Positions 5,707 through 20,646 of a DNA stretch of 20,646 nucleotides are shown piece by piece. The translations under genes were made by a program, and so were the position numbers. The DNA comes from Nitrosotalea sp. (GTDB lineage: Archaea > Thermoproteota > Nitrososphaeria > Nitrososphaerales > Nitrosopumilaceae). The stretch spans positions 1-20,646 of the forward strand of contig JARLFW010000047.1 in NCBI GenBank assembly GCA_031296345.1, in the 5' to 3' direction. How positions within the stretch are numbered: the first letter of the stretch is position 1; each line of letters begins with the position of its first letter. Below the pieces are notes generated by a model. It saw nothing but the letters and a program-made list of their open reading frames with translations. It ran no database searches and had not been told where the DNA came from.

Positions 5707-6627
5707 TTATTCTTCAATCAAAAGACTCAATTTTACTTTGAATAATTTGGTTATATTTCTTACAGAGACGTTACTTACACCGCAGACTCTTGCAATCTCC
5801 ACCTGTGTTTTTTTCTCATTAGTTGTACATGTTGCTAAGTAAACTGCCGCAGCAACTAAAGACATGGGATTTTTCCCCATAGAAAATCCGACATCTTCTG
5901 CCTTTAACAACAAATTCAAGGCATTTCTTCGTGTACTCTCGCTAGCATTAATCATACTACAAATCTTAGTTACAAATTCTACAGGTTCATACGGTTCTAA
6001 CTTTAGATCTAGACTTTGTACCATTATCCTGTATGCAGTGGCAAGATCACCTTTTCTGATATTTCCAGCTTTTGCAATATCTCGTAAAGTTCTAGGAGTA
6101 GCTGTCTTTCTACATGCAGCATATAATGCAGCATAAAGTATTGAAGAAATCCCTCTTCCTCGAGTCAGTTTTAGCGCAGCTGCCTTTCTGTAGATATATG
6201 CAGTCTCTTCAACTACATTATCTGGAAGTGAAAGTTGTGATTTCATTGTATCAAGTAACACAAATGCTTGCCTCAGATTGGAATCGTTTCCTTTTGATTT
6301 GCTTCGACTATCCCAGATTCGAAGTCTGTTAAAGGTATTTTTCATATATCCAGATAGTGAATTACCAGAAGCATCTTTGTCTTGACTTCCTATCGAAGTT
6401 GCAAGACCCATGTCATGTATAGCAAGGCTGGATTTAGATCCGGTTCTACTTTTATCGTTAAATTGTTCAAGATCAAATGAGCGTGATTCAGGTCCAACAC
6501 TATCTATTTTTTCTATCAGAACTTGACCGCATCTGGAACATAGAATTTCACCCGTATCATTGTCTGTTACAAGAGGCCCCCTAGTACATACATCTAATTT
6601 GCATCTATCAAACATCTCATCTTGCAA
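5707..6627 (-). CDS. tfb: Transcription factor B (complete paralogue)
   Basis: A complete 306-residue TFB: N-terminal zinc ribbon (C9, C14, C30, C33), B-reader/linker (HDMGLATSIG, about 72-81), cyclin repeat 1 (around GRGISSILYAALYAACRKTATPRTL) and cyclin repeat 2 (around GKNPMSLVAAAVYLATC), ending VSVRNITKLFKVKL. It would bind TBP and the BRE and recruit RNA polymerase. The first Cys pair is spaced C-x4-C instead of the usual C-x2-C. Both cyclin repeats differ clearly from the TFB core at 59-790, so this is a specialised paralogue, as expected in multi-TFB thaumarchaea. The TTG at 6627 is about 28 bases from a weak TATA-like CCTAATTAATC (6660-6650). The ATG at 6615 would shorten it by four residues. 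Confidence 0.93.
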   Translation of the reverse strand: MQDEMFDRCKLDVCTRGPLVTDNDTGEILCSRCGQVLIEKIDSVGPESRSFDLEQFNDKSRTGSKSSLAIHDMGLATSIGSQDKDASGNSLSGYMKNTFNRLRIWDSRSKSKGNDSNLRQAFVLLDTMKSQLSLPDNVVEETAYIYRKAAALKLTRGRGISSILYAALYAACRKTATPRTLRDIAKAGNIRKGDLATAYRIMVQSLDLKLEPYEPVEFVTKICSMINASESTRRNALNLLLKAEDVGFSMGKNPMSLVAAAVYLATCTTNEKKTQVEIARVCGVSNVSVRNITKLFKVKLSLLIEE

Positions 6628-6823: not shown

Positions 6824-7618
6824 ATGTCAGAAGACTTAATCCGTTCAGTTGAAGAGATGATAAAATCTGAACGGGGGGATGTTGGAAGACTACAAGATAT
6901 TCTGATTGCAATTAAAAATGGCAAATCTATTTCTTCTGATGATCATCAATATGTCGAGAGCCTCGTACAGAGTCAATCTCCACCTAATCCAGTTTCAAAT
7001 TCTGATAACACTAATAGTGATCCAATAAAACCAGATAATACTTTTGATAATATCATCCCTGAATCAAATTCAGAAATTCCAAGTCCAGAAGTCGCTGATA
7101 GAGAAGATGTAAAGAGAGCACCCACTAGAAAATATGCATCAGTTGGAATAGTAGTTGCAATTATACTTGTGGCGTATATTGGACTAGACGTATACGCTGT
7201 CGACAACTTACAATTTCGTCCTCATCATGGCCAGCAGACAATAATTTCAGAAACCCAGCTTGCTATAAAATCAGATGCGTGTAATCCAGCTTATTTCCCT
7301 GCAACATTTACCAAGTATGAAATAACCGCATTCTATAATTCTGATGAGATAGAGAAGGCTACAATTTCTGGGTCTACATTATCACCAAAATCAGCAGCTA
7401 CATTGGATGGCATATTTGCAATAAACAAAGATGCGGTAACTAAGATTGGAAAAGAGAATGCCACATTTGATCCTACCAAAGCCACAATAACAACTTCAGT
7501 AGATGCCCCGATCTTTGGATTCATCCCATATACAGTAGAAAAGAAATATCCTGCACAGGAATTCCAGGATATGATAAAGAATCCACCTCCAGGCACATTT
7601 GACTGCCTCGGATTATAA
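6824..7618 (+). CDS. Membrane-anchored protein with shared N-terminal module and extracytoplasmic domain
   Basis: The 264-residue protein has three parts. Residues 1-50 form a helical cytoplasmic module (MSEDLIRSVEEM, GDVGRLQDIL, QYVESL) that also starts the SHOCT protein at 19111-19410. Residues 51-100 are a low-complexity Asn/Ser/Pro/Asp linker. One transmembrane helix (about 104-126, SVGIVVAIILVAYIGLDVYA) precedes an extracytoplasmic beta-rich domain (about 130-264) containing C153 and C261, which could form a disulphide. Segments such as ISGSTLSPKSAATLDG and DAPIFGFIPYTVEKKY recall LEA14/WHy-like beta sandwiches, but that is only a resemblance. The ATG is about 26 bases from TTTAAATTA, so the transcript is probably leaderless. 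Function unknown. Confidence 0.8.
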   Translation: MSEDLIRSVEEMIKSERGDVGRLQDILIAIKNGKSISSDDHQYVESLVQSQSPPNPVSNSDNTNSDPIKPDNTFDNIIPESNSEIPSPEVADREDVKRAPTRKYASVGIVVAIILVAYIGLDVYAVDNLQFRPHHGQQTIISETQLAIKSDACNPAYFPATFTKYEITAFYNSDEIEKATISGSTLSPKSAATLDGIFAINKDAVTKIGKENATFDPTKATITTSVDAPIFGFIPYTVEKKYPAQEFQDMIKNPPPGTFDCLGL

Positions 7619-18413: not shown

Positions 18414-19109
18414 ATGTCTTTGTTAGAGATTAAGAAAAACAAGGATGCAATATCATGCTTTGAGAAAATAATCGAATACAAACATGATCATGTTGACGCA
18501 CTAAATAATTTGGGAAATCAGTATGCCGAATTGCAACAATTTGAAAAAGCAGTTACATATTATGACAGAGCATTAGCAAGTGATTCCAATTACATTCCAG
18601 CATTATATAATAAAGGAATTGCAATAAGTAGACTTGAGAAATATGATGATGCGCTTGACTGTTTGAATAAGGTATTAAATAAAGAGCCAGAAAATATACA
18701 AGCTATATACTACAAGGGAATGGTTCTAGGTAAACAAAAAAAATATGAAGACGCAATATCTTTTCTGGATAAATTTCTAGAAAGAGAACTAAAAGATAAT
18801 GAAGTGTTATTTCATAACGAGGTACTTTATGAGGCATTATTTTACAAGGCAACTGATTTATCTGAGCTTGGAAGACATCAAGATGCAATACTGATCTTCG
18901 ATAAAATACTAAAAGAATTTCCAAAAAATGGTACTATAATTTATGCAAAAGCAAGAAGTAAGGCTCAACTTGGTGAAGATAGTGATGCGCTAATTCTTCT
19001 CGCACAGGCAATCTCTCACTATGGTAAAACCATAAAGAAATGGGCGGTCAAAGATTCTTCATTCGATAAACTAAAAGGGGATCCCAAATTCAAGACTATA
19101 GTGAAATAA
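18414..19109 (+). CDS. TPR-repeat protein (N-terminus lost behind an amber codon)
   Basis: The open part (231 residues from the ATG at 18414) consists of tandem tetratricopeptide repeats of about 34 residues: NKDAISCFEKII, FEKAVTYYDRALASDSNYIP, YDDALDCLNKVLNKEPENIQ, YEDAISFLDKFLE and HQDAILIFDKILKEFPKN. It ends with the KWAVKDSSFDKLKGDPKFK motif typical of archaeal TPR proteins. TPR arrays bind peptides or scaffold complexes. The natural start is 18267 (see preceding entry), and the same frame is open from 18366. The ATG at 18414 has only AAAGGA directly before it, a poorly spaced ribosome site. A small internal duplication, NEVLFH followed by NEVLYE, lengthens one repeat. It is followed one base later by the SHOCT gene, so the two form an operon. 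Confidence 0.8.
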   Translation: MSLLEIKKNKDAISCFEKIIEYKHDHVDALNNLGNQYAELQQFEKAVTYYDRALASDSNYIPALYNKGIAISRLEKYDDALDCLNKVLNKEPENIQAIYYKGMVLGKQKKYEDAISFLDKFLERELKDNEVLFHNEVLYEALFYKATDLSELGRHQDAILIFDKILKEFPKNGTIIYAKARSKAQLGEDSDALILLAQAISHYGKTIKKWAVKDSSFDKLKGDPKFKTIVK

Positions 19110-19110
19110 A

Positions 19111-19410
19111 ATGTCTGAAGATATACTAAAAACCGTCAAGAATTTGCTGACATCTGGCAAGGGAGATTCAAAGAGACTAAGAGAAATAGTTGAGATTATA
19201 AAAAAAGGAGAGCCTGTTGTCATGTCAGATTATAGATACGTCCAATCGTTGACCGAATCTTCAAAAGGCGTAGAAGGAGAGCAACCCCCAAGTGTCAAAC
19301 CAAGTAAAAATGATGAGTCATTAGAACTACTTCGGGTCAGACTTGCAGAAGGTCAGATAACAGTTGAGCAGTTCAGGGAACTCAAGAAAGCGCTTACAGA
19401 AGACGAATAA
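19111..19410 (+). CDS. Protein with shared N-terminal module and C-terminal SHOCT domain
   Basis: This 99-residue soluble protein has two parts. Residues 1-47 (MSEDILKTVKNLL, GDSKRLREIVEII, YRYVQSL) align with the N-terminus of the membrane-anchored protein at 6824-7618, about 40 percent identical by eye, with M-S-E-D, G-D-x-x-R-L and Y-V-x-S-L retained. After a Lys/Pro/Ser linker, residues 70-96 (LELLRVRLAEGQITVEQFRELKKAL in two helices) form a SHOCT domain, a short oligomerisation or tail domain. The ATG follows the TPR stop by one base, indicating translational coupling. Role unknown; probably a partner of the TPR protein. Confidence 0.8.
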   Translation: MSEDILKTVKNLLTSGKGDSKRLREIVEIIKKGEPVVMSDYRYVQSLTESSKGVEGEQPPSVKPSKNDESLELLRVRLAEGQITVEQFRELKKALTEDE

Positions 19411-19576: not shown

Positions 19577-20646
19577 TTGTCAAAATTTGCCCCATTACCA
19601 CCAGCGCCGGTCATCATGACATGTTTTGGTCATTGTGGAATTGGTCTTGGTGCAGAAACATATCGAAGATTATTAATCGATGTTGGAGCAGATCCTCTCA
19701 AACCAACCTTAAAGGGGGAAAAAGATGAATCACGTATACTCAAGAGATATGGAAGCACGATTCTTCGATTTCCAAATGCATATGGCGGAAGCGAGATTCC
19801 ATTAATTCCAAGAGCATTATTAATCGATCTTGACCCAAGAGCCGCGAATCTGATATTACAATCATATCCAGATCTTTTTGCACTAAGAGACAAGCATGTG
19901 ATATCAGGAGCAGGCGGTGCTGCAAGAAATTGGGCAGAAGGTCGTACAAGATTCATCAAAGAAGTAAGTACAAAATATGATATGCAAAAACAACTTGCCA
20001 GTCTTTCTCCAGAACCAGTAAGAGGTTTTACGATTCCATTTGCAATGGGGGGTGGTACTGGTGCCTCATTTGCTAGTGCATTTATGCAATACATTAAAAG
20101 AGATACAAAAGAGCATGCAACAATTGCATCATTTGGATTATTACCAGAGTTTGGATGGGATCCAGTAATTTTAGAAGCATCGGCTATTAACATTGTAATG
20201 AATCTAGAACACCAGATAAAATATAGTGACTGTTCAATTCTATTTTCAAATAAAAGACTAAGAGAATTAGCACAAAGACATGAGAAAAGACTAGAAAAAA
20301 TGTCATCAATTATAGATGATCTTCCAAAGGAGCATGAAGTGGGGTGGAAGGATTACAGAGGAATGAACTTGATTGCAGCAAATGCAATGTCCATGTTTGT
20401 TGCATCCTTTGCAAGAGAAACAGAATGGGACATGTCAAACTATAGAACGTGGCTTGCAACAAAGAGGCCAAGATTTGCAATTACTTGGGTAATTCCAGTA
20501 ATTCCAGAAGAAAGACAATGGGGAGCTGATTTGACTGGCACCAAACATAACACAATGGAAGGAATTGTGGAACACATCAATAAGAAAGAGGATGCGGTAT
20601 TGTTTGATATTGATGAAAACGATATAAGAGACAAGGGCGGACCTAA
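19577..20646 (+). CDS. Tubulin/FtsZ-superfamily GTPase, tubulin-like N-domain, cut by window end
   Basis: At least 356 residues are visible. Nucleotide-fold motifs follow tubulin order and spacing: CFGHCGIGLGAETY (16-29, tubulin G-Q-C-G-N-Q-I-G), PRALLIDLDP (78-87, tubulin R-A-x-L-V-D-L-E-P), GAGGAARNWAEG (111-122, tubulin G-A-G-x-N-W-A-K-G) and the glycine-rich T4 loop MGGGTGAS (157-164). The gap between the first Gly motif and T4 is about 140 residues, close to tubulin (about 130) and unlike FtsZ (about 85). Deviations: T4 lacks its last Gly, and the T7 segment (around TEWDMSNYR, 282-290) lacks the N-x-D-x-x-D/E catalytic pattern. Thaumarchaea are known to carry divergent FtsZ-like proteins, and artubulins were described in Nitrosoarchaeum; I cannot decide which this is. 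The start is TTG at 19577, directly after an in-frame stop; an ATG at 19616 would begin just before the motif. Confidence 0.85.
   Translation, partial: MSKFAPLPPAPVIMTCFGHCGIGLGAETYRRLLIDVGADPLKPTLKGEKDESRILKRYGSTILRFPNAYGGSEIPLIPRALLIDLDPRAANLILQSYPDLFALRDKHVISGAGGAARNWAEGRTRFIKEVSTKYDMQKQLASLSPEPVRGFTIPFAMGGGTGASFASAFMQYIKRDTKEHATIASFGLLPEFGWDPVILEASAINIVMNLEHQIKYSDCSILFSNKRLRELAQRHEKRLEKMSSIIDDLPKEHEVGWKDYRGMNLIAANAMSMFVASFARETEWDMSNYRTWLATKRPRFAITWVIPVIPEERQWGADLTGTKHNTMEGIVEHINKKEDAVLFDIDENDIRDKGGP

Follow-up and report, generated by a model that had tools for sequence, protein, structure and literature searches.

How might a tubulin work that keeps the contacts for guanosine triphosphate (GTP) while carrying asparagine in place of the catalytic acid of its T7 loop? 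The question is raised by a gene at the end of a 20,646-nucleotide stretch of DNA from Nitrosotalea sp. (GenBank assembly GCA_031296345.1, contig JARLFW010000047.1), called here the window. The gene, identified from its open reading frame, Pfam, homologues and a tree, lies on the + strand at 19577..20646, starts with TTG and comprises 356 codons with no stop before the window ends; because the window is the entire contig (G000:C168), the gene is cut off at its 3' end, which the assembly lacks. In a congeneric relative (L002) the protein is identical across all 356 residues present and reaches a full length of 461 amino acids. We assign it to the artubulins, relatives of microtubule tubulin found in ammonia-oxidising archaea, which were reportedly proposed in 2012 as candidate ancestors of eukaryotic tubulin. 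The artubulin family is already known; what is new is an Asn that hardly varies within a gapped T7 loop, the constant partner gene and the rarity of a neighbouring Snf7 gene. None of these three is reported in the search listings and main-text passages that our literature search covered.

The likeness of this open reading frame to tubulin is far beyond chance, as seen in its Pfam E-value, the number of its homologues and the conservation of T7. It matches Pfam Tubulin (tubulin/FtsZ GTPase domain) with E = 2.7e-16, the sole Pfam family above cut-off, and a scan of it against NCBIfam gave no match. We found 171 homologues at E <= 1e-3, of which 120 were listed; 116 of these are 420-490 amino acids long, four being dropped by length, and conservation counts (n = 116) refer to these full-length homologues among the 120 listed. 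Nine of the 120 carry the NCBI name 'cell division protein FtsZ' and 15 the JGI name 'tubulin gamma'. By sequence, its nearest relatives of solved structure are Asgard tubulins, and eukaryotic tubulins come next. Profile-profile comparison (hhalign) with alpha/beta/gamma-tubulin covered 386 columns at 24% identity (E 2.6e-16), against a weak match to canonical FtsZ (E 0.0034, probability 9.5%). These values bear out a preliminary description of this DNA, which had called the protein tubulin-like rather than FtsZ-like and whose quoted motifs (GHCG, RALLIDLDP, GAGGAARNWAEG, GGGTGAS, ETEWDMSNYR) are all present.

A tree of 56 rows, with gamma-tubulin as one row and CetZ, TubZ, OdinTubulin and AtubC not among them, joined the window gene and 17 relatives in one clade (100/100) within a clade of tubulins and artubulins (100/100), apart from canonical FtsZ, the short thaumarchaeal FtsZ and other archaeal relatives. 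The window gene is outside the FtsZ clade, and the NxDFAD form of T7 is not present in it. Two Nitrosarchaeum rows (L105, L107), both from metagenome-assembled genomes (MAGs) and not the two 2012 strains, fall in the artubulin clade (100/100). The L105 locus reads triosephosphate isomerase, DNA polymerase B, dCMP deaminase, Snf7, artubulin, MFS and DEAD helicase, which matches the gene block given for the first artubulins (PMC3349469). Because the clade is shared with Nitrosarchaeum loci and L105 has the published block, the gene is placed by sequence in the artubulin family (Yutin and Koonin, 2012) and not in FtsZ. The artubulins of Nitrosarchaeum and Nitrosotenuis belong to the same family by the tree and published neighbourhood (PMC3349469, PMC3835317); the window gene differs from them in being in Nitrosotalea and in lacking a Snf7 neighbour. 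Branches in this tree are very long, the one leading to the artubulin clade measuring 2.9 changes per column, and a program warning pointed to long branches meeting, with the two E rows L040 and L041 next to the tubulins. Three of the Asgard rows are fragmentary, and how the tubulins branch among themselves, the single gamma row included, is not fixed by this tree. The position of artubulin among tubulins is also left open in a 2026 paper (PMC13394414). The protein thus lies outside FtsZ and inside a named family, whose function was described as untested in 2013 (PMC3835317).

The T7 loop and start of helix H8 (ETEWDMSNYR, 20417..20446, + strand) include E283 (20423-20425), D285 (20429-20431) and N288 (20438-20440). 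In the hhalign alignment, EWDMSNYRTWL stands opposite NVDLTEFQTNL of alpha-tubulin, with a three-residue gap in artubulin just before it, and in the weak FtsZ match opposite NVDFADVRTVM (E. coli N207, D209, D212). The alpha-tubulin and E. coli FtsZ equivalents are N249 and N207 for E283, D251 and D209 for D285, and E254 and D212 for N288. In alpha-tubulin E254 is catalytic, and K254 of beta-tubulin is its non-hydrolysing counterpart (PMC13394414). At N288 all 115 homologues with a letter have Asn, the remaining one (P0094) having a gap; Glu at E283 is found in 116/116, and D285 is Asp in 115/116 and Asn in 1/116. For neighbourhood analysis 80 of 85 loci were kept, 81 with the window; the N288 site is present in 80 of them, with Asn in 79 (including L121) and Ser in one (L091), while L140 is truncated before it. 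No acid at the E254/D212 position occurs among the 116 homologues or the 80 site-bearing sequences from loci and window, and T7 is nearly unchanged among relatives down to 53% identity. Artubulin therefore lacks the acid that GTP-hydrolysing tubulins and FtsZ have at this position. The preliminary description had proposed a T7 region without its acidic trigger; in the alignment this holds for the E254/D212 position, occupied by Asn, but the segment is not acid-free, since D285 is kept at D251/D209 and E283 is present. The L091 protein combines the sole Ser for Asn at codon 288 with Asp for Glu281 (DTEWDMSSYR), and because L091 is a MAG both a true change and a sequencing error are possible.

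Elsewhere in the site, all on the + strand, the T1 loop FGHCGIGLG (19625..19651) has G18, H19 and G21 in 116/116 homologues, and the T2 region RALLIDLDPR (19811..19840) places D86 at the position of alpha-tubulin E71. Residues N225 (20249..20251), Y260 and N264 (20354..20368, start of H7) correspond to alpha-tubulin N206, Y224 and N228, which we take to be guanine contacts, and each is found in 116/116. In the T4 loop GGGTGAS (20048..20068), GGGTG is conserved in the 116 homologues save for one that opens with Ser, and Ser takes the place of the Gly that closes tubulin GGGTGSG; the absence of this Gly had been remarked on before and extends to the family, position 164 being Ser in 113/116 and Ala in 3/116. 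The nucleotide-binding residues of T1, T4 and the guanine contacts thus follow the tubulin family except for this last Gly, and the GTP-binding site looks intact from its residues.

The predicted model (predicted local distance difference test, pLDDT, 76.5; predicted template modelling score, pTM, 0.83) has a tubulin fold along the full chain including the two C-terminal helices, with H7 at 261-283, T7 at 284-286 and H8 from 287, which puts N288 within the opening turn of H8. Across 39 aligned sequences, 15/20 columns of T7/H8 reach 97% identity or more, as against 0/28 in the M-loop segment, which suggests that the head-to-tail face is strongly constrained and the lateral-contact loop of microtubules is not. 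Alpha-, beta- and gamma-tubulin, Asgard AtubA/B, BtubA/B and OdinTubulin share with artubulin the predicted fold, the T1-T6 layout and the guanine-contact residues. They differ from it at 15-19% identity in the structural alignments listed, and artubulin is set apart by its T7 gap, Asn for Glu254 and the lack of any conserved M-loop column. FtsZ is of the same superfamily and in its canonical form also has GGGTG, but differs in its profile match (E 0.0034), its separate clade and, for the short FtsZ, in being a separate gene.

This short FtsZ is the second tubulin-superfamily protein of the genus. A second PF00091 match is present in 33/37 Nitrosotalea genomes and is as a rule this protein of about 331 amino acids, taken here as the Nmar_1262 type; its consensus (15 sequences; L141-L154, L053) has no T7 segment and a changed T4. 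Because the FtsZ-like gene of about 331 amino acids occurs in addition to artubulin in most genomes of this genus, we rejected an identity of artubulin with Nitrosopumilus maritimus FtsZ (Nmar_1262), whose T4 reads AGKAGSA (PMC3684127). That the short FtsZ supplies the T7 acid in a mixed filament is likewise not supported, its consensus having no T7 counterpart and an altered T4. Most genomes of the genus therefore keep a second tubulin-superfamily protein without the catalytic loop.

Directly downstream of artubulin, a protein of about 181 amino acids is encoded in 77/77 loci with room for it (76 within 200 bp, plus L121, placed separately; the other 4/81, three loci plus the window, leave no space for it). 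Its first ATG is 2-18 bp past the artubulin stop in 68/77 and overlaps by 26 bp in one; the start is uncertain in 8/77, since the first ATG lies further in. The window's assembly has the partner gene at the start of another contig (G000:C150:3-467), which fits an assembly break inside the pair. Conservation of the partner extends down to 25-36% identity; neither Pfam nor NCBIfam offers a family above cut-off for it, and it is called 'hypothetical' or 'uncharacterized' where named among the 120 listed of its 413 homologues. Its predicted structure is a helical hairpin with a small alpha/beta domain (pLDDT 89), a coiled-coil protein. Artubulin is patchy in the class, being found in 66/300 genomes sampled (68 hits minus G054 and G068, which are weak, at about 1e-5, in frames of about 900 amino acids), and the partner is present in 66/66 of these; the counts come from two 300-genome draws, taken to be one set since the genomes listed for each coincide. 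Intact partner genes adjoin an artubulin without its N-terminal part in G175 and G251. In G232, G233, G234 and G286 the partner's open frame is 508 amino acids, as if fused with the next gene, and in L129 the gene following the partner encodes about 310 amino acids with no Pfam match.

What the computation shows, namely the family, a substituted and gapped T7, kept guanine contacts, M-loop variability and a two-gene unit whose members co-occur, suggests to us a protein that may bind GTP, hydrolyse it slowly, assemble longitudinally and physically bind its partner. With Glu for N249, Asn for E254 and a gap in T7, the usual hydrolysis geometry of the interface would be removed, and since the GTP contacts are kept a GTP-locked tubulin is to be expected. 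Artubulin would bind GTP, and the conserved Asn from the gapped T7 would face the next subunit's nucleotide, where alpha-tubulin has Glu254 (Asp212 in FtsZ), making hydrolysis upon head-to-tail contact slow or absent. Assembly would be longitudinal, with GTP as a structural ligand, yielding single protofilaments or short oligomers and not microtubules, and turnover, if any, would be governed by the coiled-coil partner. We hold this combination of GTP binding, slow or absent hydrolysis, longitudinal assembly and partner-set turnover with about even confidence. A stronger version is possible, though on balance doubtful: that artubulin and its partner have permanently given up polymerisation-triggered hydrolysis, with GTP as structural glue, assembly and disassembly carried out by the partner, and no T7 acid at E254 in any subunit.

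Several observations weigh against a GTP-locked filament. The Asn at N288 is not absolute (Ser in L091, a gap in P0094), the model is weakest at T7 (residues 284-286 with pLDDT < 50), and D285, the counterpart of alpha-tubulin D251 and FtsZ D209, is kept. In structures of Staphylococcus aureus FtsZ, D210 swings and positions the catalytic water (PMC8936486), so that residual hydrolysis is possible. Taken further, artubulin may still be a GTPase, D285 and/or E283 catalysing in a reshaped T7 and filaments turning over like those of other tubulins: the two acids are retained in 115/116 and 116/116 homologues, the three-residue gap could put E283 within reach, and the FtsZ equivalent of D285 is that swinging catalytic residue. 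However, the other key residues, N208 and D213 of S. aureus FtsZ, are Glu and Asn in artubulin, and the constancy of the Asn looks selected, not tolerated; we consider this outcome unlikely. FtsZ mutants with Asn for the acid itself behave in opposite ways, E. coli D212N forming stable polymers (PMC12754632) and S. aureus D213N failing to assemble (PMC8936486), so filaments are plausible, not assured, and an artubulin filament may not exist. Artubulin would then stay monomeric or dimeric with GTP bound, acting as a switch or adaptor for the coiled-coil partner. The failure of S. aureus N208L to assemble (PMC8936486), the M-loop segment with 0/28 conserved columns and the lack of polymerisation of N. 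maritimus FtsZ, a different protein, in yeast (PMC3684127) all agree with such a role; yet the longitudinal face at T7/H8, conserved in 15/20 columns, would be needless for a monomeric switch, and a non-polymerising artubulin appears rather improbable to us.

We give very little credence to a capping or nucleating tubulin in a hetero-polymer, in which the Asn would shield the GTP of a partner subunit as beta-tubulin K254 does that of alpha. A non-acidic residue does occupy the site in beta- (Lys) and gamma-tubulin (Gly), with the role of K254 described (PMC13394414), and 15/120 listed homologues are named 'tubulin gamma' by JGI, but the second PF00091 protein of the genus is as a rule the short FtsZ without T7, and the genomes of the genus showed no tubulin subunit whose catalytic loop is intact. 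Control by the partner also meets difficulties. The partner occurs without artubulin in 29/300 genomes, so it may have another job: five are of group f2 and 20, mostly shorter matches, of group f8, and the rest are a remnant and a fragment (G017, G167), a broken copy (G060) and a copy at a contig end (G073). The unit is dispensable, with no artubulin match in 3 of the 37 genomes of the genus, the window's being counted among the 37, and G017 (L161) keeps a partner remnant of about 40 amino acids and no artubulin. Partner and artubulin travel together in these archaea, and the partner is older or more widely used. The partner-gene fragments of about 40 amino acids in G017 and G167, where artubulin was not found, point to separate losses of the unit.

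With the acid lost across the family and a constant partner gene, a tubulin whose use was obscure now yields a prediction specific enough to test, and artubulin should not be taken as a working model of the ancestral dynamic tubulin without caution. If the stronger version given above is true, there would be a tubulin cytoskeleton without a catalytic T7 acid at E254 in any subunit.

The idea of cooperation in division was based on adjacency to ESCRT-III (Snf7), and this adjacency is limited to a small part of the family. We rejected Snf7 as a conserved neighbour, as it lies within three genes upstream in 7/78 parsed loci; searched with a profile built from these seven, the 80 loci and the window yielded no further copy, although a very divergent one could escape it. 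The window's genome has Snf7-type matches below the family cut-off, on other contigs. The artubulin of Nitrosotenuis uzonensis, about 79% identical to that of Nitrosarchaeum, does not adjoin Snf7 in the published description (PMC3835317).

Named records with artubulin include Nitrosotalea, Nitrosotenuis, Nitrosarchaeum, Nitrosopumilus and Nitrososphaerales genomes, many of them MAGs. One record (L096), titled Gammaproteobacteria bacterium BBSC-SA02, has an artubulin locus in a Nitrosotenuis-like neighbourhood, and its label or binning is probably wrong.

Two + strand genes precede artubulin in the window. Directly upstream is a SHOCT-like gene of 99 amino acids (19111..19410; Pfam SHOCT E 0.0019, below cut-off), whose cluster is the nearest upstream neighbour in 35/75 loci having one. 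Before it lies a tetratricopeptide repeat (TPR) gene (18414..19109), which in this genus stands two genes ahead of artubulin and is found within three genes of it in 33 loci. A TPR neighbour also accompanies the bacterial tubulins BtubA/B (PMC3349469); the link to artubulin may be chance, since the TPR gene is retained in L161 without artubulin. The SHOCT-like frame shares a related MSED...GD..RL... start with the frame at 6824-7618, the former matching SHOCT weakly and the latter LEA_2 weakly. At the contig edge, a TFB-like frame (2-790) carries the stretch ALKILEQANEKEISAGKDPMGLA twice, once at the start of the frame and once near the end of the frame, a repeat that may have arisen in assembly, at the end of the contig. 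This frame and that at 5707-6627, both presumably TFB-type transcription factors by their look, lie in one 20-kb contig.
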